Virus record (IMG/VR): IMGVR_UViG_3300044621_002775
Location: 1 to 36,522 of that record
Reading direction: 5' to 3' (one strand)
DNA: 36,522 nt
DNA from: a virus
Positions 5,424 through 36,197 of this stretch are shown here, one piece after another. Position 1 is the stretch's first letter, and each line of letters opens with the position of its first letter. The notes under the pieces are model-generated. The model saw only the letters and a program-made list of their open reading frames with translations, searched no databases and was not told the DNA's origin. Both the position numbers and the translations under genes were made by a program.

Positions 5424-6608
5424 GTGGCGCGCGTGTTCGTCCGAGGCGCGGTGCTCTGGCTCGAGTACCGCGACGCGCGCGGCAAGCTCCGCCGCGAGTC
5501 GACCGGCTTGCCGAAGTCGAAGAAGAAGGCCGCCCGCGCGATGCTCGCCGAGCGCCACCACGCGAAGTACTCCGCGGGCCGCGGGCGCAAGATGCCGCTG
5601 CTCGGTGAGTACGCCGAGGGCTGGATCTCGAAGCGGATCGAGGAGGGCAAGGCGGTCGAGGCGCAGGCCTCGCGGCTCCGCACGCACGTGCTCCCGGTGC
5701 TCGGCGACCACCGCCTGGACGCGATCACCGTGAGCGACGTGCGCGAGCTCGTGCGCCAGCTCCGCGCCGGGCGCACGCAGACGGGGCGCGCGCTCGCGCC
5801 GCGGACCATCCAGCAGATCGTCCGCGCGCTCGGCGTCGTGTTCAAGGACGCCCGCATCGACGAGGTGCTGCCGGCGGGCCACGCGAGCCCCGTCGTGTTC
5901 CGTTCGGGCGACCTTCCCCCGATGCTGGACGCCGACCCGGACTTCCGCGGGAAGAGCCTGTACACGCGGGAGGAGGCCGATCGGCTGATGAGCGACACCG
6001 CCGTGCCCGAGCACATGCGGCTCGCGTTCGCGGTCCTCTTCCTCACCGGGATCCGCGCGGGCGAGCTCGTCGCGCTGCGCTGGGGCGACCTGCACGAGCG
6101 CGCGCCGCGGTGGTGCCTGCGCATCGCGCGGTCGTGGCAGGAGGCGCGCGGCCGCGAGAAGTCGACCAAGACCGGCGTGGTGCGCGACATCCCGGTGCAC
6201 CCCGCGCTGCTTCCGCGGCTCCTTGAGTGGCGGGACGTCGCGTGGCCGCGCGAGTTTGGTCGCGCGCCGCGCGTCGTGGGCAAGCCGGCCGACACCGATC
6301 TCGTGCTCCCCGCGCCGAAGACGGCGACGGTGCACTACGGGATCAAGAACCTCGCGCTCGCGCGCGCCGATGTTCTGCGGCGCCTTGGGCTGCGCCCGCG
6401 CCGCACGCACGACACCCGGCGCACCTTCATCACGCGGGCGCGCGAAGACGGAGCCGAGCGCGATCGGCTGAAGCGGCTGACGCACGCCCGCGTCGGCGAG
6501 GTGTTCGACCAGTACTCAGAGTTCCCGTGGGCGTCGCTCTGCGCGGAGGTCGACAAGCTGCGGCTCGCCGGGTGGGCTCCGGCCGATACTCAGGGGGACA
6601 ACTCATGA
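5424..6608 (+). CDS. int: Phage integrase, tyrosine recombinase
   Basis: A 394-residue integrase of full domain architecture. Residues 1-55 are an arm-binding-like domain (GKLRRESTGLPKSKKKAARAM), 58-145 a SAM-like core-binding domain (LGEYAEGWISKRIEEG), and 175-390 the catalytic domain. Active-site residues are R211 (LTGIRAGELVALRW), K249 (STKTGVVRDIPVHP), H329-x-x-R332 (THDTRRTFITRA), H354 (RLTHARV) and Y364 (VFDQYSEF). It would integrate the phage into a host att site by strand exchange. The GTG start is one base after the previous stop. No attP core can be identified, and the gene lies mid-operon rather than at an edge. Confidence 0.92.
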   Translation: MARVFVRGAVLWLEYRDARGKLRRESTGLPKSKKKAARAMLAERHHAKYSAGRGRKMPLLGEYAEGWISKRIEEGKAVEAQASRLRTHVLPVLGDHRLDAITVSDVRELVRQLRAGRTQTGRALAPRTIQQIVRALGVVFKDARIDEVLPAGHASPVVFRSGDLPPMLDADPDFRGKSLYTREEADRLMSDTAVPEHMRLAFAVLFLTGIRAGELVALRWGDLHERAPRWCLRIARSWQEARGREKSTKTGVVRDIPVHPALLPRLLEWRDVAWPREFGRAPRVVGKPADTDLVLPAPKTATVHYGIKNLALARADVLRRLGLRPRRTHDTRRTFITRAREDGAERDRLKRLTHARVGEVFDQYSEFPWASLCAEVDKLRLAGWAPADTQGDNS

Positions 6609-7219
6609 CCGCGCCGTTGCCCTTCCGTCTCGGTGGGTACGGCACGATCGTCGCCGACCCACCCTGGCACTACGACGACCAGGCCGGGCGGATGCGCCTC
6701 GGCTACCCGACGATGACCGACGAGGAGATCGTGGCGCTGCCGGTCTCGTCGATCGCGAGCGACCGCGCGCACCTGTACTTGTGGACGACGGACGCGCACC
6801 TTGAGGTCGCGCTTCGCTGCATCCCGGCGTGGGGGTTCACGTTCAAGCGCACGCTTTGCTGGGTGAAGACGCGCGCGCGAGAGCGCATCGCCGCCGCGCT
6901 CGACGCGATCGAGATGGGCGAGCTCGACCGCGCGACGCAGCTCGTCCACGGCGCGCTCAAGCTCCAGATCGGTGGCGGGCACTACCTCCGCGGAGCCCAG
7001 GAACTGTGCCTGTTCGCGGCCCGCGACCAGACCGGGCTCGTGCGCGACGTGCCGAACGTGATCTTCGCGCCGCGCACGCGGCACAGCGCGAAGCCCGACG
7101 AACTGCTCGAGATCGCCGAGCGGCTCTCGCCGGGCCCGCGCCTCGAGATGTTCGCCCGCCGTTCGCGGCCGGGCTGGGTCGCCTGGGGCAATCAGGCGCC
7201 CACGGGAGATGAGTTGTGA
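6605..7219 (+). CDS. MT-A70 family DNA N6-adenine methyltransferase
   Basis: The catalytic motif DPPW is at residues 18-21 (TIVADPPWHYDD). It is followed by the family's GYPTMTDEEIVALPV segment, LYLWTTDAHL, WGFTFKRTLCWVKT and GHYLRGAQELCLFA, then HSAKPDELLEIAERLSPGPRLEMFARR at the C-terminus. These enzymes transfer a methyl group from S-adenosylmethionine to N6 of adenine. Phage versions protect against host restriction or tune transcription. No partner endonuclease is nearby. An insertion (residues 85-120, RARERIAAALDAIEMGELDR) between the W-V-K and GHYLRG elements is helical and not common in the family. Start ATG overlaps the integrase stop (ATGA). Confidence 0.88.
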   Translation: MTAPLPFRLGGYGTIVADPPWHYDDQAGRMRLGYPTMTDEEIVALPVSSIASDRAHLYLWTTDAHLEVALRCIPAWGFTFKRTLCWVKTRARERIAAALDAIEMGELDRATQLVHGALKLQIGGGHYLRGAQELCLFAARDQTGLVRDVPNVIFAPRTRHSAKPDELLEIAERLSPGPRLEMFARRSRPGWVAWGNQAPTGDEL

Positions 7220-8469
7220 TCAAGCCAGATCCCCACGTTCGCGTCCGCCTCTCGCTGCCGAAGCGCCTCGTGCACGCGCTCAAGGTCGTCCACGCCCGCA
7301 ACCAGGCCGTCGAGCGCGACGAGTCGGAGTCGATCTCCACGCTCGTCGCGTGCGCGATCGAAGACTACCTCGCGCAGGGCGCGGGGCCGTTCGACGACGA
7401 GCTCGAGCCCGAGCCCGCGCCGAAGACGAAGCGCCGCCGGGTGAGCGACGAGGACCGCGCGCGGATGCATGCTCTGCGCGTCGAGGGCGCGACCCTCCCC
7501 GCGATCGTCGCGGCGACGGGCGCATCGCTGGGCACCGTGTACCAGGCTGTCCGAGCGGCGCGCCCTGACCTCCAGATGCGCCCCCGGTTGACGGGCGAGC
7601 AGCGCGCGCACGTTCACCAGCTCTACGCCCGAGGCGTCAGCACGAAGGAGATCGCGGCGCGGATGTCGTGCTCGATCCACACCGTCCAGCGCGTCGTGCG
7701 CGCCGCGCGAACCATTCAGCCCGGCTTAACAGTTGCGGCGGAGGGCGCGCCGTTTCCGTGTTCCTCTCGAACATCCGAAGATCCGCGGACCCCTGAAAAA
7801 CAAGGCGAGGACGCACCCGTGTACGGACCCACCGCTCAAGTTCGGGACAGCGACGATAGCCCCCGGACCCACCGCAAGCCGACGCTCCTCGAGGTCGCCG
7901 CGGTCATCTCCCGCCGCGGCCCGACCTGCTTCGTGGGCCAGGTGTTGACCGCGTTCCCCGAGCGCGATGCGCTCAGCGTCCGCGCCGCGCTCGACGAGCT
8001 CGCCGCCCGCGGCGTCATCGAGCGATCGAGCTGGCGCGGGCGCCCGCGCGTGAAGATCGACGTGCACGAGCTCGCGCTCCTCCGTCGCTCGATCGACAAG
8101 GCCCGTCCGCCTCGAGGCGACCGCGCCGAGCGCGCGGACCGGCCCGTCGAGGCCAGCGGCCGCGCGATGAGCGAGGCGGAGCTCGCTGCGCAGAACACGC
8201 TCCGCGCGCAGTGCCTGCGGGCCGAGCTTGACGCGCTCACCGAGGCGGCCGAGCGGGTGCTCGGCGAGTACCAGCGCGCCGAGAGCGCGCGACACCACGG
8301 GCTGCTCCCGAGCCTGGCCGACGAGGGCCGCCGCCTGGCCGCGCGCGCCCGCGAGATCGAGGCGGAGCTTGGCCAGTTCCCGGCCCGGCTCGAACCGACT
8401 GACCGAAAGTCCACGAAGTTTCCCGCGCGCCGAGACGAACAAGTGCGCACGCCGACGGAGGCCGCATGA
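7216..8469 (+). CDS. Multi-domain DNA-binding protein (RHH-like, two HTHs, winged helix); possible gene fusion
   Basis: The 417-residue frame strings together several DNA-binding elements. Residues 8-55 resemble a ribbon-helix-helix (VRVRLSLPKRLVHALKVVHA). Residues 77-117 are an HTH (MHALRVEGATLPAIVAATGA, SLGTVYQAV). Residues 125-165 are a second HTH (GVSTKEIAARMSCSIHTVQR). Residues 220-285 are a winged helix (TLLEVAAVISRRGPTCFVGQ, VRAALDELAARGVIERSSWR). The C-terminus is coiled coil (ALTEAAERVLGEYQRAESAR). Residues ~172-215 read like translated intergenic DNA, less GC-rich and with no fold pattern. This suggests a fusion of two regulators, or a second gene starting at GTG 7819. Start GTG overlaps the methyltransferase stop. 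Confidence 0.6.
   Translation: MIKPDPHVRVRLSLPKRLVHALKVVHARNQAVERDESESISTLVACAIEDYLAQGAGPFDDELEPEPAPKTKRRRVSDEDRARMHALRVEGATLPAIVAATGASLGTVYQAVRAARPDLQMRPRLTGEQRAHVHQLYARGVSTKEIAARMSCSIHTVQRVVRAARTIQPGLTVAAEGAPFPCSSRTSEDPRTPEKQGEDAPVYGPTAQVRDSDDSPRTHRKPTLLEVAAVISRRGPTCFVGQVLTAFPERDALSVRAALDELAARGVIERSSWRGRPRVKIDVHELALLRRSIDKARPPRGDRAERADRPVEASGRAMSEAELAAQNTLRAQCLRAELDALTEAAERVLGEYQRAESARHHGLLPSLADEGRRLAARAREIEAELGQFPARLEPTDRKSTKFPARRDEQVRTPTEAA
7755..7773 (+). promoter_or_regulatory. Second copy of the 3253 operator-like motif, inside the 7216 frame
   Basis: TCCGTGTTCCTCTCGAACA differs from 3253-3271 at one base. It lies in the AT-richer, foldless middle of the 7216 reading frame, 46 bases before a GTG (7819) that has GGCGAGGA upstream. 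The position mimics the first copy, which precedes a gene start. This supports the view that this stretch was once intergenic. Confidence 0.4.
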
Positions 8470-9917
8470 GCTGGTCGAGGACCTACGCCGGCGACACCCG
8501 GCGCCGTCAGGTCGTGGCGCTTCAGCGGGCGCTCGGCTGCTCGCGCGTGCTCGCGGTCGGTTGGGACGCCCTCGTGCGCGACCTGGCGACGGAGCACGAC
8601 GGAGACCTCACCGGATGGGCCTCCGAGGACATCGAGGCGGCCGTGGGCTGGGACGGCGAGGCCGGCGCCCTCGGGGCCGCCCTGCGCGCGTCTGGGCTGC
8701 TCGTAGAGGTCGCGGGCGCGGTGCGCCCGGACCGGTGGGAGGAGCGAGAGGGGTCGGCGCATGAGCGCGCTCGGAAGCGCTCGTGGCGGGCCTCGCGGCG
8801 CGTCCAGAAAGCCGACGTCGCCGAGGTCGGCGGAGGAGCTATTGCCGACACGACCGGGACCACGACGAGACTGTCCCGGGACACGGACGGGACCACGACG
8901 GGACTGTCCCCGCAGCCCTCCCCCCCGGTTCTCCCCGCTTCCTCTCGTTCTCTCCCCACACCCCTCTCTTACTCTCCTTCACCCCTCTCCAGCCCCCCCA
9001 CGGCGTCGCGCGCGGCGGGCGAGAGCGCGCAGGGCGAGCGAGAGCCGGCCCCAGCGGCGGCGCCGACGCCGAGCGGGCCCGAGACGCAGAGCCGCACGGC
9101 GCGGCTGTCGCTCGCGTTCGTCGACGGCTGGAACGCCGTCGTCGCGGGCCGCGGCCAGCACCGCGCGATCGTCGAGATCGACGCCATCGCCCGGGCGCGG
9201 CTGTTCGACTCGGGCCTCGACGAGGCCGGCGTCCGCCGGCTGCTCGAGCGGGTCGCCGGGTCGAAGTTCTTGCTCGGGCTCGGCCAGCGTCGGTTCGTGC
9301 CCTCGCCGCGGTTCATCGCCGACAACGCGGCGAAGATCCTCGCGGGCGACTACGACGACGACCGCCGGCGCGTCGACGCCGAGCTGATCGCCCCGTGGCT
9401 CGCCGCGTGGACCTCGGTCGAGGAGCGCACCGAGCCGTCGAGCGAGCGCACCACGGCGCGCGATCTGGCGCTGACGAGCGCGCTCGAGACGTGGCGCGCG
9501 TCGGCGAGCACGGCGAGCTGGGCGACGCCGGCGGCGGCCCGCGGCGCGGCGCTCGAGGTGCGCGCCCGGCGCAACGCGAGCAAGGCCCCGCTGACGACGA
9601 CGCTCGACGACCTCGTGCGGCGCAAGGCCCTGCTCGAGGAGATCATGCGCGCCGGCGAGGCCCGCACGAAGGCGGCGTCCACGCCGAGCTCGGCGCCGAG
9701 CCCCGCGCCGCCGCCGCCCGAGCGGGAAGAGCTCTCCGTGCAGCAGCAGATCGCGGCGCTTCGCGCGCGGCGTCAGCTCGTGCCCCGATCGTTCACGGAC
9801 GCCGACACCGCGCGCCTGGCCGCGCTCGAGGAGCAGCTCGCCGAGCAGCACGAGCCCACGGCCATCCGCGCGGTGCTCCAGCGGGAGTTCGGCGTGGTGG
9901 CCGAGGGGGCGGCCTGA
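8466..9917 (+). CDS. Phage replication initiator / replisome-organiser-like protein
   Basis: A 483-residue protein in three parts. Residues 10-92 form an N-terminal winged-helix-like domain (VVALQRALGCSRVLAVGWDA, DIEAAVGWDGEAGALGAALR). Residues ~125-210 are a Thr/Ser/Pro-rich linker encoded by tandem repeats and a pyrimidine tract. Residues 218-300 match the C-terminal domain of phage replication proteins: VDGWNAVV, SKFLLGLGQRRFVPSPRFIA, KILAGDYDDD (typical form F-L-L-G...W...ILxGxYD). The remainder is coiled-coil-prone (LDDLVRRKALLEEIM, LSVQQQIAALRARR). It probably binds repeats within its own gene, as lambda O does, and recruits the host helicase. No phage helicase or primase was seen. Confidence 0.72.
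   Translation: MSWSRTYAGDTRRRQVVALQRALGCSRVLAVGWDALVRDLATEHDGDLTGWASEDIEAAVGWDGEAGALGAALRASGLLVEVAGAVRPDRWEEREGSAHERARKRSWRASRRVQKADVAEVGGGAIADTTGTTTRLSRDTDGTTTGLSPQPSPPVLPASSRSLPTPLSYSPSPLSSPPTASRAAGESAQGEREPAPAAAPTPSGPETQSRTARLSLAFVDGWNAVVAGRGQHRAIVEIDAIARARLFDSGLDEAGVRRLLERVAGSKFLLGLGQRRFVPSPRFIADNAAKILAGDYDDDRRRVDAELIAPWLAAWTSVEERTEPSSERTTARDLALTSALETWRASASTASWATPAAARGAALEVRARRNASKAPLTTTLDDLVRRKALLEEIMRAGEARTKAASTPSSAPSPAPPPPEREELSVQQQIAALRARRQLVPRSFTDADTARLAALEEQLAEQHEPTAIRAVLQREFGVVAEGAA
8847..8912 (+). repeat. Two tandem 33-bp repeats (iteron-like, candidate origin)
   Basis: Units 8847-8879 and 8880-8912 match at 29 of 33 bases. Each holds a 22-base core (8856-8877 and 8889-8910; one mismatch) whose ends are inverted: GGGAC and GTCCC. 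The 33-base period keeps the reading frame and yields the repeated peptide GTTTRLS / GTTTGLS. Repeats inside the initiator's linker codons are the arrangement of the lambda origin in gene O. Function as an origin is inference. Confidence 0.6.
8914..9001 (+). other. Long pyrimidine tract next to the tandem repeats
   Basis: The + strand here is almost all C and T for nearly 90 bases (for example CTTCCTCTCGTTCTCTCC at 8938-8955), with few purines. It encodes a Ser/Pro/Leu linker. Such strand asymmetry directly beside iteron-like repeats could be an unwinding, triplex or primosome-assembly element of a replication origin, or only a low-complexity linker. Confidence 0.5.
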
Positions 9918-10126
9918 TGGTCGACTACTCCGAGCTCGCGCCCGACGAGCTGCGCATCATCCGCTCGGAGCACGAGGCGCGGATGCGGCTGATCGGTGAC
10001 CGCCGCGCGGCCGCCGAACTCGTGCGACGATGGGCCGTGAACGGGCAACGGAGCGGCGAGGCCCGCGAGGTGCTGATCGAGGTCGGTCGCATCCTCGGCG
10101 TCATCCCGCGAGAGGAGACACCGTGA
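9917..10126 (+). CDS. Small hypothetical protein (69 aa)
   Basis: TGATG overlap with the initiator gene fixes ATG 9917. The protein is a charged three-helix-like chain (DELRIIRSEHEARMRLIGDR, RAAAELVRRWAVNGQ, REVLIEVGRILGVIP). It sits between the replication gene and the virion-morphogenesis-like gene and overlaps the latter's GTG. A helicase-loader role is possible by position but is not supported by any motif. Confidence 0.55.
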   Translation: MVDYSELAPDELRIIRSEHEARMRLIGDRRAAAELVRRWAVNGQRSGEAREVLIEVGRILGVIPREETP

Positions 10127-10674
10127 GCAACTTCCGAGTGGACGTCGACGTACCCACCACGCTGCGACTGAGGATCAACGGTCGACTCATCGTCGAGAAG
10201 GCCGGGCGCCGCATCGCGCGCCTCATGCAGCAACAGATCCGCGCCGGCATCGACGGCAACGGAGCCCAGGTCCCGAAGCCCAAGCGCGGCAACCGCCCGC
10301 TCGTCGCGACGGGCCAGCTCGCGCGCTCGATCGCGAGCGACCGCGCGCGCAAGGGCCGCGACGGCGGGCCCATCTCTGCGGTGCGCGCGACGGGCTTTCA
10401 CAGCATCCGCGCGGCCGAGCGAACGAAGAGCCGCACGAAGCTCGGGCGCTACGGCCACGGGCGCGGGGGCAAGAAGCGCGAGAGGCCCGCGAACGCGAAG
10501 ATCCTCGCGTCGCAGGCGAAGCGCATGGCGCGCCCGCTGCTCGCGCTCACCGAGGCCAACGCGGCCACGGTCGCCGCCGCGATGAAGGCCGAGCTCATCG
10601 CGCAGGTGAACGCGGGTGGGTTGGTGACCGAGCGACGCACGGCCCGTCGACTGTACGGGGGAGGGCTGTTCTGA
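10123..10674 (+). CDS. Virion morphogenesis-like protein (Mu gpG / P2 gpS type)
   Basis: A 183-residue basic protein. Residues 30-70 (GRRIARLMQQQIRAGIDGNG, then PLVATGQLARSI) carry the pattern of phage virion-morphogenesis and minor tail-completion proteins, which show I..GxDxxG followed by L.xTGxLxxSI. The C-terminal half is helical and Ala/Lys-rich. These proteins help complete tails or join heads to tails. Its place upstream of the terminase rather than in the tail module is unusual. GTG in a GTGA overlap, with AGAGGAGA upstream. Confidence 0.55.
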   Translation: MSNFRVDVDVPTTLRLRINGRLIVEKAGRRIARLMQQQIRAGIDGNGAQVPKPKRGNRPLVATGQLARSIASDRARKGRDGGPISAVRATGFHSIRAAERTKSRTKLGRYGHGRGGKKRERPANAKILASQAKRMARPLLALTEANAATVAAAMKAELIAQVNAGGLVTERRTARRLYGGGLF

Positions 10675-10958
10675 TGACTACGCTCAAGGCTGACATGATC
10701 GAACTCTTGCGTGCGGGGAAGATGCACAGCGAGTTCGATGGCATCATCTGGCATCGAGCCATCGACCAGAGCATCGGCTGCGAACCGTTGGCGATCGTGA
10801 CGTACAGCGAGGAACCTTCGCCGGAGACCGGTCACGTCGGGTGGTGCTGGTGGGCGATGGGGCGGATGGGCGACGCTCCGAGCTTCATCGAGGCGCAGAT
10901 GGCGGCGCAGATGCGGGTGCACAAGATCAAGAGTGGCGAGACCAGCGAGGGCGGCTAA
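10674..10958 (+). CDS. Hypothetical protein (94 aa), lower GC
   Basis: TGATG overlap with the previous gene. The sequence (MTTLKADMIELLRAGKMHSE, RAIDQSIGCEPLAIVTYSEE, GHVGWCWWAMGRMGD) suggests a small alpha/beta protein. The DNA is distinctly less GC-rich than that around it, and codon choice is more relaxed, as in newly acquired cargo genes. No family recognised. Confidence 0.6.
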   Translation: MTTLKADMIELLRAGKMHSEFDGIIWHRAIDQSIGCEPLAIVTYSEEPSPETGHVGWCWWAMGRMGDAPSFIEAQMAAQMRVHKIKSGETSEGG

Positions 10959-10960
10959 GT

Positions 10961-11113
10961 ATGCGAACCCACGTTGACCCTGGACCCATGCCAAGTGCCC
11001 GAAATCATTGGAACGGCCCGAATGAGCTAAGTGCCCGGAATCAGGTGGCAGAATCCTGGGTGGGATTGGCGAGAGCCGTGGGTATGCGTTGCCAACTTCC
11101 GGCCGGAATGTGA
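10961..11113 (+). other. Gap with short direct repeats and a possible 50-codon frame
   Basis: Between 10959 and 11124 no convincing gene is seen. A frame from ATG 10961 to TGA 11113 encodes 50 residues, but it has no Shine-Dalgarno sequence and no recognisable motif. The 15-base sequence AAGTGCCCGAAATCA (10993-11007) recurs with one mismatch at 11029-11043, a 36-base period. A related CCGGCCGGAATG follows at 11099-11110. These repeats just upstream of the packaging genes could be binding sites, for example for terminase (pac) or a late regulator. Confidence 0.35.
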
Positions 11114-11124
11114 GGATAAGCCCC

Positions 11125-11772
11125 ATGGCGAAGAAGAAGCAGCGCCCGGCGCCGCGCGCCGCGCCCGCGGCCAAGCCCGCGAAGAAGCGCAGGAATCGGA
11201 CCGCCGACACCGCGGCGAGGAAGCGAACGACGGTCGCGAAGATCGAGCGGGCCGAGAAGGTCGCCGCGGCGATGGTGAAGGCCGCGGCCGCGATGCAGCC
11301 GTTCGGCGTGCCGGACGAGAAGTGGGAGTCCGCGCGCGCCGCGATCGTCGCTGCGTCGACGCTCGACGGTGAAGAGGCGATCGAGGTTGCCGCCGACGCG
11401 CTGCTCACCGTCGGGAAGTACTTCCGCGACGTGAAGCGCGCGGTCGGCGACGGCGGGCTACACGAGCTCGGGCACGAGGCCCTGCGCGCGACGATGGTCT
11501 CCGTGAAGTCGGTCCCGGCGCTGATCAAGGTGCTGGCGCTGCGGCGCCGGAAGAAGCGGCCGATCGCCGCGCTCGTCAGCGATCTCGGCCAGGAAGTGAC
11601 TCATGCTGTCGACGCGAACCGTGGACGATCGAATCCGGTGGTGCGAGCAGAACCTGCGGATGACCGACGGGTCCCCGTGGAGCATCGCCAGCCGCCCGTG
11701 GGTGAGGGACAAGCTGTTCCTCCCGTCGTACGGGTGGACGATCTCGAGTCGCTCGTCGAGCAGTCCGCCTAA
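11125..11772 (+). CDS. Basic helical protein upstream of and overlapping terminase
   Basis: Encodes 215 residues. Residues 1-40 are Lys/Arg/Ala/Pro-rich (MAKKKQRPAPRAAPAAKPAK), a likely DNA-contacting tail. Residues 40-155 are helical (KIERAEKVAAAMVKAAAAMQ, LDGEEAIEVAADALLTVGKY). The last 56 residues are read from DNA that also encodes the start of the terminase in another frame (11603-11772). Position suggests a small-terminase or packaging role, but no HTH is visible. The true stop could also mean the long tail is non-essential overprint. Weak upstream GTGAGGATAAG precedes the ATG. Confidence 0.55.
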   Translation: MAKKKQRPAPRAAPAAKPAKKRRNRTADTAARKRTTVAKIERAEKVAAAMVKAAAAMQPFGVPDEKWESARAAIVAASTLDGEEAIEVAADALLTVGKYFRDVKRAVGDGGLHELGHEALRATMVSVKSVPALIKVLALRRRKKRPIAALVSDLGQEVTHAVDANRGRSNPVVRAEPADDRRVPVEHRQPPVGEGQAVPPVVRVDDLESLVEQSA

Positions 11773-13345
11773 GCTCTGCGACCGCTGCGGCCGCGTCGCG
11801 GGCCGCGTCGTCGCGTGGTCGCCGGAGCTCGAGGACAAGCTCGACGCGGGGTGCTCGTCGTGCGCTGGGCTCAAGCTCACACCCATTCAGAGCATCGTGC
11901 AGTACTTGCCGCGTCGTGAGGGCAAGACCACCAACCTACTCAGCCTGTGCGTCGAAGAGATGTTCTCCGAGCAGAACCGGCGCACGGTCTACATGGCCGG
12001 GTCGAAGGACCAGAGCGAAGTCATCGGCCTCGAGAACATCCGCGCGTACCTGCGCGACAACGAGGACCTCGCCGACGAGTGGACGATCGTCGGCAACGAG
12101 TTCCGCGTGCCGGAGAACAACAACGTCCTCGAGATCGTGCCGGCGGCGCAGACGTCGCGCGGCCGCGGCGCGACTCGCGTGGTCTTCGAGGAAGCCAAGG
12201 ACGTCCCCGCCACGGCCGTCGCCGCGCTGCTCCCGAGCATCATGGACAACAACGGCCAGACCTGCGTGCGCGGGCACGCGTGGCCGCTGACGCCGCGCCG
12301 GCGCGAGTGCCCGGTGTGCAGCGCGCGCGTGCGCCCGTGGTTCGGCCAGGTGCTGATCGTCGGCACGGGCGGCCTCGACGAAAGCAACGAGGACCTCGCG
12401 TGGTTCAAGCAGTTGGTCGAGCAGCTCGAGCGCGAGCCGAACCCCGCCGCGTTCATCTACGCGTCGAGGGTGTCGCTCAACCCCAAGGTCGCGGGCGAGT
12501 CGCGGCAGATGATCGACAGCGTCTTCGCGAAGGTCCCTTCGCTCTCGGCCGCGGTCAGCGCGGAGCTCGGCAACGAGTTCCGCCAGAAGGGCGACGCGTT
12601 CTTGGGCCAGCGCGAGTGGCGGCGCACCGTCGACCCGGACCTCGAGCTCGGGCTGGGCTCCGATCGACCCGCGATCGCGTTCCTCGACACCTCGCTCTCG
12701 CAAGACGTCACGTCGCTTGTGGTGATGCTCGACGACGACGGCACGCATCCGTGGTGGCGACGCGACAAGGCCGCGACGGAGCCGTGGGAACTGATGAGCG
12801 TTGGCGCGATCGAGGTCTTCGACCCGAAGCTGATGGGCGGCACGATCGACGTCGAGTCCGTCTACGACGCCTGCGCGCGCGTGCTCCCGCTGTACCCCGG
12901 GCTCCGTGAGTTCTGGGTCGACACGCGACTCATGCCCTGGGCACGTGCGTTCGTCGATCGCATCATCAAGGAGCGCTCCGCGTGGGGGCGCTTGGCCAAG
13001 AGGTACGCGCACGGCGGCAAGGAGAACGAGGTCAGAAACCGCGCGTGGGTCGTGTACGAGCAGCGCATCTTGAACGTGACCATCCGGCACCCAAAGCTCG
13101 AACGTCTCGAGCAAGAGATCCTTGGGCTCCGGCGTCACGTCGGAGCCAACGGGTTCGAGGTGCGCGACCGCAACCGCAAGCGCCGCCACGCGGACATCGC
13201 GGAGGCGATCGCGTCGCTCGCGGGCCGCGCGTGGGAGTTGCGCACGCAGCCCCGGCCCGCTAGCGTTGCAGCTCGGAACAGCAGTGCAGAGGCCCGCATC
13301 AGCGCGCTTGTCGCGCGGCGCGGCGCGGTCGATCAGACGTTCTAG
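11603..13345 (+). CDS. Terminase large subunit with two zinc-ribbon insertions
   Basis: A 580-residue packaging motor and nuclease. The N-terminus (WCEQNLRMTDGSPWSI) is typical of large terminases. The ATPase has a Walker A-like RREGKTT (residues 104-110) and a Walker B VVFEEA (193-198). The RNase H-like nuclease has acidic residues D362 (IAFLDTS), D440 (FWVDTR) and D531 (RRHADIAEAIASLA). Two cysteine clusters are inserted: C59-x-x-C62 with C84-x-x-C87 before Walker A, and C221/H225 with C236-x-x-C239 after Walker B, both likely zinc-binding. The ATG lies 170 bases inside the previous gene, in another frame. Downstream is a small winged-helix gene. Confidence 0.88.
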   Translation: MLSTRTVDDRIRWCEQNLRMTDGSPWSIASRPWVRDKLFLPSYGWTISSRSSSSPPKLCDRCGRVAGRVVAWSPELEDKLDAGCSSCAGLKLTPIQSIVQYLPRREGKTTNLLSLCVEEMFSEQNRRTVYMAGSKDQSEVIGLENIRAYLRDNEDLADEWTIVGNEFRVPENNNVLEIVPAAQTSRGRGATRVVFEEAKDVPATAVAALLPSIMDNNGQTCVRGHAWPLTPRRRECPVCSARVRPWFGQVLIVGTGGLDESNEDLAWFKQLVEQLEREPNPAAFIYASRVSLNPKVAGESRQMIDSVFAKVPSLSAAVSAELGNEFRQKGDAFLGQREWRRTVDPDLELGLGSDRPAIAFLDTSLSQDVTSLVVMLDDDGTHPWWRRDKAATEPWELMSVGAIEVFDPKLMGGTIDVESVYDACARVLPLYPGLREFWVDTRLMPWARAFVDRIIKERSAWGRLAKRYAHGGKENEVRNRAWVVYEQRILNVTIRHPKLERLEQEILGLRRHVGANGFEVRDRNRKRRHADIAEAIASLAGRAWELRTQPRPASVAARNSSAEARISALVARRGAVDQTF

Positions 13346-13353
13346 GAGGAGCC

Positions 13354-13596
13354 GTGAAGAAGTACGCCGAGAACGCCCGCAACGTCCGCGAGATGTCGCG
13401 AAGCGAGTTCGCAGACGAACTCAGGATCTCGTACACGACCGTGCGTCGGTGGATCAGCGAAGGTAAGTTCATCCCGGAGGAATCCGTGCGCCAGGACGAC
13501 ATGGGGCGGTACTGGATTCACGAGTCCGCCGTGGAAGAGGTGAAGACGAAGCTGCGCGCGCGCATGGACAACACGCGGATGGATTCCACGTTCTGA
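13354..13596 (+). CDS. Small MerR/Nu1-like winged-helix protein
   Basis: An 80-residue protein with AGGAGG ideally placed before GTG 13354. Residues 15-60 (SRSEFADELRISYTTVRRWI, SEGKFIPEE, DMGRYWIHESAVEEVKTKL) form a MerR-family or excisionase-like winged HTH. The same fold is found in the DNA-binding domain of lambda small terminase Nu1. Sitting between the large terminase and the portal, it is a candidate small terminase subunit; a regulator of the head operon or an excisionase are alternatives. The first of the three pyrimidine-rich elements follows its stop. Confidence 0.65.
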   Translation: MKKYAENARNVREMSRSEFADELRISYTTVRRWISEGKFIPEESVRQDDMGRYWIHESAVEEVKTKLRARMDNTRMDSTF

Positions 13597-13600
13597 GATA

Positions 13601-13632
13601 ATCTCTGTCCTCTCTGTTCTTCCTGTCTCGAC
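13601..13632 (+). promoter_or_regulatory. Pyrimidine-rich intergenic element, copy A
   Basis: A 32-base sequence beginning ATCTCTGTCCTCTCTGT. It matches 17524-17555 at 31 of 32 bases and 28470-28494 at 24 of 25. It starts five bases after a stop codon and exactly 62 bases before the portal GTG (13663), which has no Shine-Dalgarno sequence. No hairpin or standard -35/-10 is visible. It could be a phage-specific promoter or regulator site, a Rho-use-like (YC-rich) site, or a module-boundary sequence. Confidence 0.6.
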
Positions 13633-13662
13633 ACTTGTAGGGCACCCCTCGACCGTGGGCCG

Positions 13663-14940
13663 GTGACCGGCCTCCGCATCACCAATGGGCTGCCGCCCAT
13701 TCGTCTGCAGGGTGTGCAGCGCGACCTGCGCGAGCACAACACGGAGGCGTCCGGCGAGGCCTGGTTCGGCTCCCCGTGGGCGCTGGGTGCGGCCGAAAAG
13801 CTGCGTCGCGACACCTACGCGCAGCGCGCCGTGCAAGGCGTCATCGGGCCGCTGGTGCAGAGCTTCTTCGACTTCGAGCCGGCGTCTCGCACCAACCCGC
13901 TCGACGTCGAGATCGCGCGCTTCTGCGAGCGCAACTTCTTCTCGGGACTTTTCTCGTGGATCGAGGTGCTCGAGCAGGCCCTGGGCTACCTGTGGGACGG
14001 CTTCTCGGTGTTCGAGTGGATCGAGCGCGTCGCGCCTGTGTCGCGCGATGAGTTCCCGCAGCATCCCGGCCGCGGGCTCGGCGTGTGGATCGGGTCGTTG
14101 GCTCACCGGCCTGCTTGGTCCATCACCGCGCTGCACCCGCGCAAGGACGACGCGTCGAAGCTGCTCGAGGCCTGGCAGTACACCCACGACGATGAGTTCG
14201 TGCGGATTCCGGCGAGCAAGGTGCTCCGCTTCGCGTTCAAGAGCGGCGGCAACGACCTGTACGGGTTCGCGCCCGCGCGACCCATGTACGGGCCGCACCG
14301 CGCCAAGGTGCTGCTCTGCGCGCTCGAGATGGTGCAGCACGAGCGTGCTCACGTCGGCACGCCGCAGCTGCTGACCGAAGCCGGAGTCGAAGTCTCCTCC
14401 GAAGACCTCGAGGCCGCCGAGAAGATGCTGGCGGAGCTCCGCTCTGCCGAGCGCGGGTACGTGATCCCGCCCCCCGGCACCAAGGTCGAGTACACGACGA
14501 CGAAGGGCACGACCGACGTCCGCGGCACGATCGAAGACAAGAACCGCGAGATCTTGGCCACGTTCGCGGGCAATCACGAGCTGCTCGGAAGCTCGACGTC
14601 GAGCGGCTCCTACGCCCTCGCCGGCGTCCAGAAGTCGGTCCGCGAGGTGGTCGTCGAGCATCACGGGCAGATCGTCGTCGACACGATCAACTACGGCCGC
14701 GACGGCTGGTCGCCCGTGGAGCGTCTCGTGCGCGCCAACTACGGCCCGGGGGTCGCGCTGCCGCGCGCCGTGCTCCGGTCGACGCCGCTGCGCAACACGC
14801 AGGCGTTGGCCGAGATGACCGAGAAGCTCGTCAAGGCCGGCGTGTGGACGTCGGGAGACGACACCGAGGAGTTCCTGCGCGAGGCGTCGGGCATGCCGCA
14901 GGAGCGGCGCCCGAGGAACAAGGAGATCGCGACGCCATGA
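13663..14940 (+). CDS. Portal protein, DUF935 (Mu gp29-like)
   Basis: A 425-residue portal of the DUF935 family. The family features seen are the early RDTYAQRAVQGVIGPL helix, LGYLWDGFSVFEWIERV (family G-x-S-x-F-E), WSITALHPRK, IPASKVLRFAFKSG, and PPGTKVEYTTTKGTT before EILATFAGNHELLGSSTSSG and VVEHHGQIVVDTIN. Twelve copies form the ring through which DNA enters the head and to which the tail joins. The GTG at 13663 is the first possible start after an in-frame stop at 13594-13596 and lacks a Shine-Dalgarno sequence. Its stop overlaps the protease start (ATGATGG). Confidence 0.85.
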   Translation: MTGLRITNGLPPIRLQGVQRDLREHNTEASGEAWFGSPWALGAAEKLRRDTYAQRAVQGVIGPLVQSFFDFEPASRTNPLDVEIARFCERNFFSGLFSWIEVLEQALGYLWDGFSVFEWIERVAPVSRDEFPQHPGRGLGVWIGSLAHRPAWSITALHPRKDDASKLLEAWQYTHDDEFVRIPASKVLRFAFKSGGNDLYGFAPARPMYGPHRAKVLLCALEMVQHERAHVGTPQLLTEAGVEVSSEDLEAAEKMLAELRSAERGYVIPPPGTKVEYTTTKGTTDVRGTIEDKNREILATFAGNHELLGSSTSSGSYALAGVQKSVREVVVEHHGQIVVDTINYGRDGWSPVERLVRANYGPGVALPRAVLRSTPLRNTQALAEMTEKLVKAGVWTSGDDTEEFLREASGMPQERRPRNKEIATP

Positions 14941-35744: not shown

Positions 35745-36197
35745 TCACCGATCTCCGGGGCCTGCGTCGAGGCCGCCGTCGCCGACTCCCCCATCGGGAA
35801 CGCAGTCGAACCGCGGGGCGGTTGTCCGACGCACGGTCGCAAGCTGGCATCCCTCGCCGGCGATCCAGTCCTTGCCGCAGCCGCTGTTGCTGACCCAGCA
35901 CTCGCCGTCGTGGCGTGGGCACGTCTGCACGCAGTAGACGGGTCCATCGCGGTGGCATTCGCGCGGGCCCAAGGAAGTCTCGAAGCGCGTCTCGGCCGTA
36001 CAGCCGTCGTCGTCGATGTATCCAGGAACGTCGCACGCGCCGCGTGAAAAGCCGCGACATGACGTGAACCCGATCCCTCGTTCCGGCAGAGGACACAACC
36101 GCACGCAGAACGGCTCAAGGGGCTGCGCCCTGGGCGGTTCCTCGTTTCCGCACGCCGCGAGCATCACAGCGATCCCGATCCCGATCCCGATCTTCAT
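35745..36197 (-). CDS. Cys-rich lipoprotein (lysogenic-conversion moron)
   Basis: The only minus-strand gene. ATG at 36197 gives 150 residues; an upstream ATG at 36221 would add eight residues and spoil the signal. MKIGIGIGIAVMLAACGNEE is a type II signal peptide with lipobox LAAC. The mature part has twelve further cysteines (CVRLCPLPE, SCRGFSRGAC, CVQTCPRHDGEC, SGCGKDW), enough for six disulfides. The C-terminal tail, PDGGVGDGGLDAGPGD, is of the kind common in myxobacterial surface lipoproteins. It is probably an outer-membrane protein made in lysogens, perhaps blocking superinfection. Three CCCGAT repeats (36174-36191) encode GIGIGI. Confidence 0.75.
   Translation of the reverse strand: MKIGIGIGIAVMLAACGNEEPPRAQPLEPFCVRLCPLPERGIGFTSCRGFSRGACDVPGYIDDDGCTAETRFETSLGPRECHRDGPVYCVQTCPRHDGECWVSNSGCGKDWIAGEGCQLATVRRTTAPRFDCVPDGGVGDGGLDAGPGDR

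Follow-up and report, generated by a model that had tools for sequence, protein, structure and literature searches.

Positions 8845–9002 of the window, by which we mean the whole 36.5-kb stretch of viral DNA analysed (mean GC content 0.718), very probably (we would put it at roughly 0.85) hold the phage's theta-type origin of replication, which, as far as can be judged from sequence, lies within the codons for the linker of the initiator that the phage itself encodes. The origins of phages have been mapped in few model phages. Among these, a location inside the initiator gene is established for lambda (PMC5043065), SPP1 (PMC6316719) and the lactococcal phages TP901-1 and Tuc2009 (PMC8965321). 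The window has two components of an in-gene iteron origin, namely repeats inside the initiator coding sequence and, next to them, an element that is calculated to melt easily. The sequence-only reading had already placed a candidate origin inside the initiator gene, and this placement gains support from the presence of the same phased boxes in the linkers of many initiator families, together with a putative meltable tract on their 3' side. The features of the window that bear on the argument are as follows.

269–1258, + strand: integrase-family gene, one of two separate ones
5424–6608, + strand: integrase-family gene, the other of the two
7216–8469, + strand: HTH_23/HTH_38 protein, 417 aa (domain E 4e-11)
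8466–9917, + strand: replication initiator gene, 483 aa, matching phrog_9474; putative origin-bearing linker between its N- and C-terminal domains
8466–8830, + strand: N-terminal domain, helical with a two-strand wing (winged-helix-like); AF2 mean pLDDT 84
8845–8910, + strand: helix-phased iteron array with a period of 11 bp; its successive 11-mers, starting at 8845, are CCGACACGACC GGGACCACGAC GAGACTGTCCC GGGACACGGAC GGGACCACGAC GGGACTGTCCC
8856–8860, + strand: GGGAC box 1
8867–8871, + strand: GAGAC, degenerate box 2, in 11-bp phase
8873–8882, no strand assigned: palindrome GTCCCGGGAC, an inverted box followed by GGGAC box 3
8889–8893, + strand: GGGAC box 4
8900–8910, no strand assigned: GGGACTGTCCC, box 5 plus an inverted box, an 11-bp palindrome that closes the array
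8911–9002, + strand: pyrimidine-rich tract, candidate DNA unwinding element; 77 pyrimidines of 92 (over 8911–9001, 77 of 91, or 85%)
9081–9362, + strand: C-terminal domain (aa 206–299), common to GGGAC-box initiators; proposed helicase/loader contact
10030–14940: neck-, terminase- and portal-like genes, directly downstream of the initiator gene

The iteron array and the adjoining tract

Two direct repeats of 31 nt (8847–8877 and 8880–8910), 90% identical and 33 bp apart, make up the top-scoring tandem array of the window (score 107; the next scores 79). They had been described as 33-bp tandem repeats with GGGAC/GTCCC ends; the spacing and the inverted arms are borne out, but the true period is 11 bp, and 33 bp is its triplet-frame multiple, the distance at which the codon frame recurs. 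GGGAC starts at 8856, 8878, 8889 and 8900, and GAGAC (8867) and CCGAC (8845) stand in the same 11-bp phase. We define the class by at least four GGGAC copies in 11-bp phase in an initiator linker; here four exact copies span 8856–8904 at positions 1, 3, 4 and 5 of the array, with GAGAC at position 2. The box is read in three codon frames, as Gly-Thr, Arg-Asp and Thr-Gly-Leu, which argues for selection on the DNA rather than on the protein. GGGAC and the overlapping CGGGA are the sole 5-mers of the window with four copies in 11-bp phase within 60 bp. Four in-phase copies were reached by 44 of 20,000 synonymous-codon shuffles of the initiator gene, a null model that is conservative because the repeated peptide is kept.

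The tract that follows had been described as almost 90 bases of pyrimidines. It is indeed the most strand-asymmetric stretch of the window (its best 60-nt window is 90% pyrimidine, against 72% elsewhere), an asymmetry reached by none of 3,000 synonymous shuffles, but it is less pure than that wording implies, being interspersed with G and A and having a longest pure pyrimidine run of 11. According to nearest-neighbour energies, its least stable core (8939–8978, 55% GC) is such that 0.55% of the 40-bp stretches of the window are less stable. The 90 bp 3' of the array were calculated to lie at the 2.8th percentile of instability, compared with the 40th on the 5' side. In this calculation the C/T tract melts easily because it contains few CG and GC steps, which may be how a genome of 72% GC could build a meltable element without AT-richness. 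The suggestion that a C/T tract is a fit to a GC-rich host does not suffice by itself, as tracts are also found in lower-GC phages, usually with purines on the coding strand.

If the region acts as proposed, the five or six GGGAC boxes, whose 11-bp spacing places them all on one side of the helix, would be bound by N-terminal domains of the initiator. At the centre and at the end of the array, the inverted GTCCC halves (8873 and 8906) would let the protein bind in pairs. As the initiator oligomerises, the array would become wrapped, and the resulting torsional strain would pass into the neighbouring pyrimidine tract and melt it; the C-terminal domain would then recruit the host replicative helicase, either directly or via a loader.

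The initiator protein

The N-terminus of the predicted initiator (aa 11–135) matches the profile of phrog_9474, annotated as "replication initiation protein" (E 1.5e-6), and not the O-like phrog_345. Residues 243–299 show a weak match (E 0.014) to phrog_10469, a DnaD-like loader, and the protein has no Pfam match at E 0.1. In Foldseek searches of BFVD, the N-terminal domain had matches below E 1e-3 to, among others, "Primosomal protein 1" and "Replisome organizer", the next matches being Lin1244-N and DUF1376 proteins; the PDB gave no match below 1e-3. By sequence, this domain matches those of loci L016 and L074, the linkers of both of which carry GGGAC boxes. An HMM made from the C-termini of six other loci (L006, L007, L009, L021, L050 and L101) matched aa 206–299 of the initiator (E 5.8e-6) and no other of the 335 ORFs of the window. 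Repeats and tract occupy codons 127–178, between the two domains, and the earlier assignment of both to linker codons of the replication protein is thereby confirmed. No close relatives were found, whether viral and genome contigs were searched for protein patterns or phages by tblastn. No separate gene for a helicase or helicase loader was recognised downstream of the initiator gene in the window.

Phased boxes in other initiator genes

Viral contigs were searched for (GGGACN6)x4, a DNA pattern used alone, with no protein information; being strictly consecutive, it would miss the window's own array, whose position 2 is GAGAC. It returned at least 120 matches. Among the 120 listed, 65 lie in the middle of an ORF of 180–520 aa, the ORFs having been picked by length and their strand possibly being wrong at times, and 62 have clearly diverged spacers; since these loci were chosen by the repeat itself, they are a biased sample and the counts do not measure prevalence. 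The N-termini that precede the arrays were scanned alone, which avoids circular matches through the linker. Among the matches listed, they correspond to about 19 replication-related PHROGs, including phrog_2514 and phrog_186 (27 of 58 members each), phrog_9474 (6 members), phrog_17768 (5) and phrog_2509 (4), as well as phrog_428, the O-like phrog_345 and single members of many other PHROGs; Phage_rep_org_N and Lin1244_N of Pfam were also matched. Sulfitobacter phage pCB2047-A, an isolate reached through protein-based selection of initiators yet closely related to loci found with the pattern, has GGGAC arrays too. Its gene SUAG_00025 (phrog_2514-like, annotated as hypothetical in its record) and loci L040, L076 and L093 resemble the window in having GGGAC boxes at 11 bp in mid-gene, whereas their initiators belong to other families. 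The class of array is the same in these three loci and in others, and in all three a pyrimidine-rich stretch follows the array directly; in L040 and L076 this stretch is again preceded by a terminal GGGACTGTCCC.

Two control patterns were used. A complete scan for (CAGGGN6)x4 gave 67 matches, of which 47 have identical spacers (minisatellites) and 6 are mid-ORF. GGGAC at 12 bp yielded, among the matches listed, mainly coding repeats of tetrapeptides with near-identical spacers and few initiators; a minority of initiators do use the 12-bp spacing. Raw match counts alone are not decisive, because this 12-bp control is also abundant, mostly through repeats such as RDAAWDAA. Several loci (L355, L356, L359, L397 and others) hold long phage ORFs of such tetrapeptide repeats (RDAAWDAA, WDSVRDSV), which produce GGGAC every 12 bp and are unrelated to origins. 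A complete scan for (GTGACN6)x4 gave 106 matches, 49 of them mid-ORF, and most of the 49 look like initiator linkers when the encoded peptides are read.

A strong tract, defined as a 40-nt stretch with at least 80% purine or pyrimidine, occurs within 90 bp 3' of the GGGAC arrays in 34% of cases, against 1.4% elsewhere (p 9e-10). On the 5' side the figure is 8% (3' versus 5' in 90-bp flanks, p 0.014); an earlier test of the two sides, with other settings and another filter, was not significant (p 0.13). The coding strand carries the purines in 15 of 17 tracts; tracts of pyrimidines, the window's kind, are less common and were observed in phages of high GC content, for example L040, L093 and L098. 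DNA 3' of the GGGAC arrays has a median at the 3rd percentile of instability (p 9e-16). Its stability is below that of the 5' side (p 0.003), where the DNA of this set is itself somewhat purine-rich and unstable. For GTGAC arrays, the 3' DNA lies at the 7.8th percentile and the 5' DNA at the 57th.

Because the pattern-found loci had been selected by the repeat, we added initiators chosen by protein only, consisting of phrog_9474 and phrog_2514 matches in bacterial genomes and phage relatives obtained by tblastn. The phrog_9474 matches in 284 + 299 bacterial genomes contained no GGGAC pairs at 11 bp, so that GGGAC is not universal; some of them carry GTGAC or other boxes instead. Seven phrog_2514 loci in 299 genomes had neither GGGAC nor GTGAC pairs. 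In total, GGGAC pairs at 11 bp were present in 0 of 39 ORFs selected by either profile and G[GT]GAC pairs in 2 of 39, which is not significant by ORF number. Across 42 protein-selected initiator ORFs, repeated 6-mers nevertheless peak at lag 11, with 68 against 13.9 +/- 4.3 in synonymous shuffles (z 11.3). A further excess is seen at lags 22–25 and a weaker one at lag 7; lags 8, 9, 13 and 16 show little. The value of z is 1.0 at lag 9, 2.5 at lag 12 and 2.7 at lag 15.

Remote relatives picked by protein often keep the layout with another box sequence. In the DnaD-domain gene of Staphylococcus phage vB_SauS_713 (L583, 1201–2094), the linker contains seven copies of ACATCA, spaced at exactly 11 bp, and after them a stretch rich in AT and purines; this is likely to be an origin that shares the layout but uses another box. 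In nd4, a relative among isolated phages, the repeat is a different one and its copies are 22 bp apart. In L308 and L323, GTGAC/GTCAC boxes at 11 bp run directly into a purine tract. Judging by these comparisons, the helix-phased layout is common in initiator genes and the box sequence varies. Five loci (L308, L318, L322, L323 and L336) have differing boxes (GTGAC, GCGGAC, GCGTTAC) and one purine tail of the type CCAGAGRAGAG, which is conserved across these box classes.

These data bear on the leading alternative, an improbable one in our estimate, in which the repeats and their Pro/Ser-rich codons are a disordered linker expanded by slippage and the DNA itself has no role. Such linkers are of low complexity and evolve fast, and many initiator linkers encode simple peptides (QEQEQ, REEKRREE). 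An 11-bp unit, however, is not a multiple of the codon, so that successive copies of one DNA box encode different peptides; in the protein-selected initiators it is lag 11, and not 9, 12 or 15, that stands far above the synonymous shuffles; and one DNA box with its adjoining tract recurs under different protein families.

The recurrence of GGGAC under different initiator families implies that either the DNA-binding domains are deeply homologous or a recognition factor, possibly one of the host, is shared; it also raises the question of why GGGAC and GTGAC boxes are common to initiators of so many families. The GGGAC layout is apparently widespread among the phages compared. We give even odds to a broader proposal, a common origin grammar in which helix-phased boxes of 5–6 bp are followed by a strand-asymmetric tract of low stability, inside the linker codons of many initiator families and in phages of about 30 to 70% GC; GGGAC and GTGAC are the most visible boxes, with ACATCA, GCGGAC and others also seen. 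Under this proposal the origins of many uncultivated phages would be readable from sequence. A rule of 11-bp phased boxes with a 3' low-stability tract would, if true, predict origins across uncultivated viromes, and it would explain the odd simple-sequence linkers of many phage proteins annotated as "hypothetical" or "DnaD-like".

Known origins and gene neighbourhood

The lambda origin maps within gene O (PMC5043065). As in the window, its iterons lie mid-ORF in the initiator gene (O aa 116–144) and are followed by a melting tract toward the C-terminus, in the same orientation. They are, however, inverted repeats of 18–19 bp, about 20–24 bp apart, which bind O dimers and have AT-rich DNA alongside, whereas the window has 5-bp boxes as direct repeats every 11 bp and a C/T tract. 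The parallel with lambda drawn in the sequence-only reading holds for in-gene iterons followed by a tract; the iteron unit is 11 bp and not 33 bp. A lambda O origin proper was rejected, since both the iteron type (11-bp GGGAC boxes) and the protein family (phrog_9474 instead of the O-type phrog_345) differ.

SPP1 oriL consists of direct repeats in gene 38 to which gp38 binds, with a DNA unwinding element next to them (PMC6316719); unlike the window, SPP1 has an AT-rich unwinding element and a separate helicase loader, gp39. In the P335 phages TP901-1 and Tuc2009, a repeat-rich region inside the rep gene is bound by Rep and acts as the origin (PMC8965321); in contrast to the window, neither GGGAC nor GTCCC occurs in the rep gene of TP901-1. 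Plasmid iterons are known to be phased with the helix, and origins can lose their activity when this phasing is disturbed (PMC5043065). Iteron plasmids of the P1, F and RK2 type share with the window direct, helix-phased iterons beside an unwinding element (PMC5043065) and differ from it in their longer iterons, which usually lie outside the rep coding region, in an AT-rich unwinding element and, often, in the presence of DnaA boxes. No description of GGGAC (or GTGAC) 11-bp iterons was found in the openly licensed literature searched, and in that literature the GGGAC 11-bp class appears to be undescribed.

The gene directly upstream, which overlaps the initiator gene by 4 bp, encodes the HTH_23/HTH_38 protein, which could be a regulator or an accessory replication protein. 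Its position enters into a second alternative, which we consider quite unlikely, that the boxes serve as an operator for autoregulation of early transcription, by the initiator or by a repressor like this HTH protein, with no origin involved. Initiators and HTH proteins often bind inverted repeats, and GGGACTGTCCC and GTCCCGGGAC are palindromic. The array, however, lies about 380 bp inside the gene rather than at a promoter, its helical phasing and 3' low-stability tract are origin-like, and it travels with initiators of many families and not with repressors. A site for another process (partition or centromere function, incompatibility or packaging) is very unlikely: iteron arrays do serve partition and incompatibility too, and the neck-, terminase- and portal-like genes begin just downstream, but the ORFs scanned showed no par genes, the terminase is more than 1.6 kb away, and the recurrence is with initiators. 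A replication origin remains the preferred reading of the array and its tract.

The closest match of the integrase encoded at 5424–6608 is that of Myxococcus phage Mx8 (35%), which suggests, without proving it, a myxobacterial host; p19 of Mx8 has no GGGAC array. The portal protein is closest to those of Gordonia phages (about 26%). No Rfam RNA or tRNA was detected in the window. Close to the contig end, at 36170–36192, the hexamer CGATCC is present in 3.8 perfect copies.
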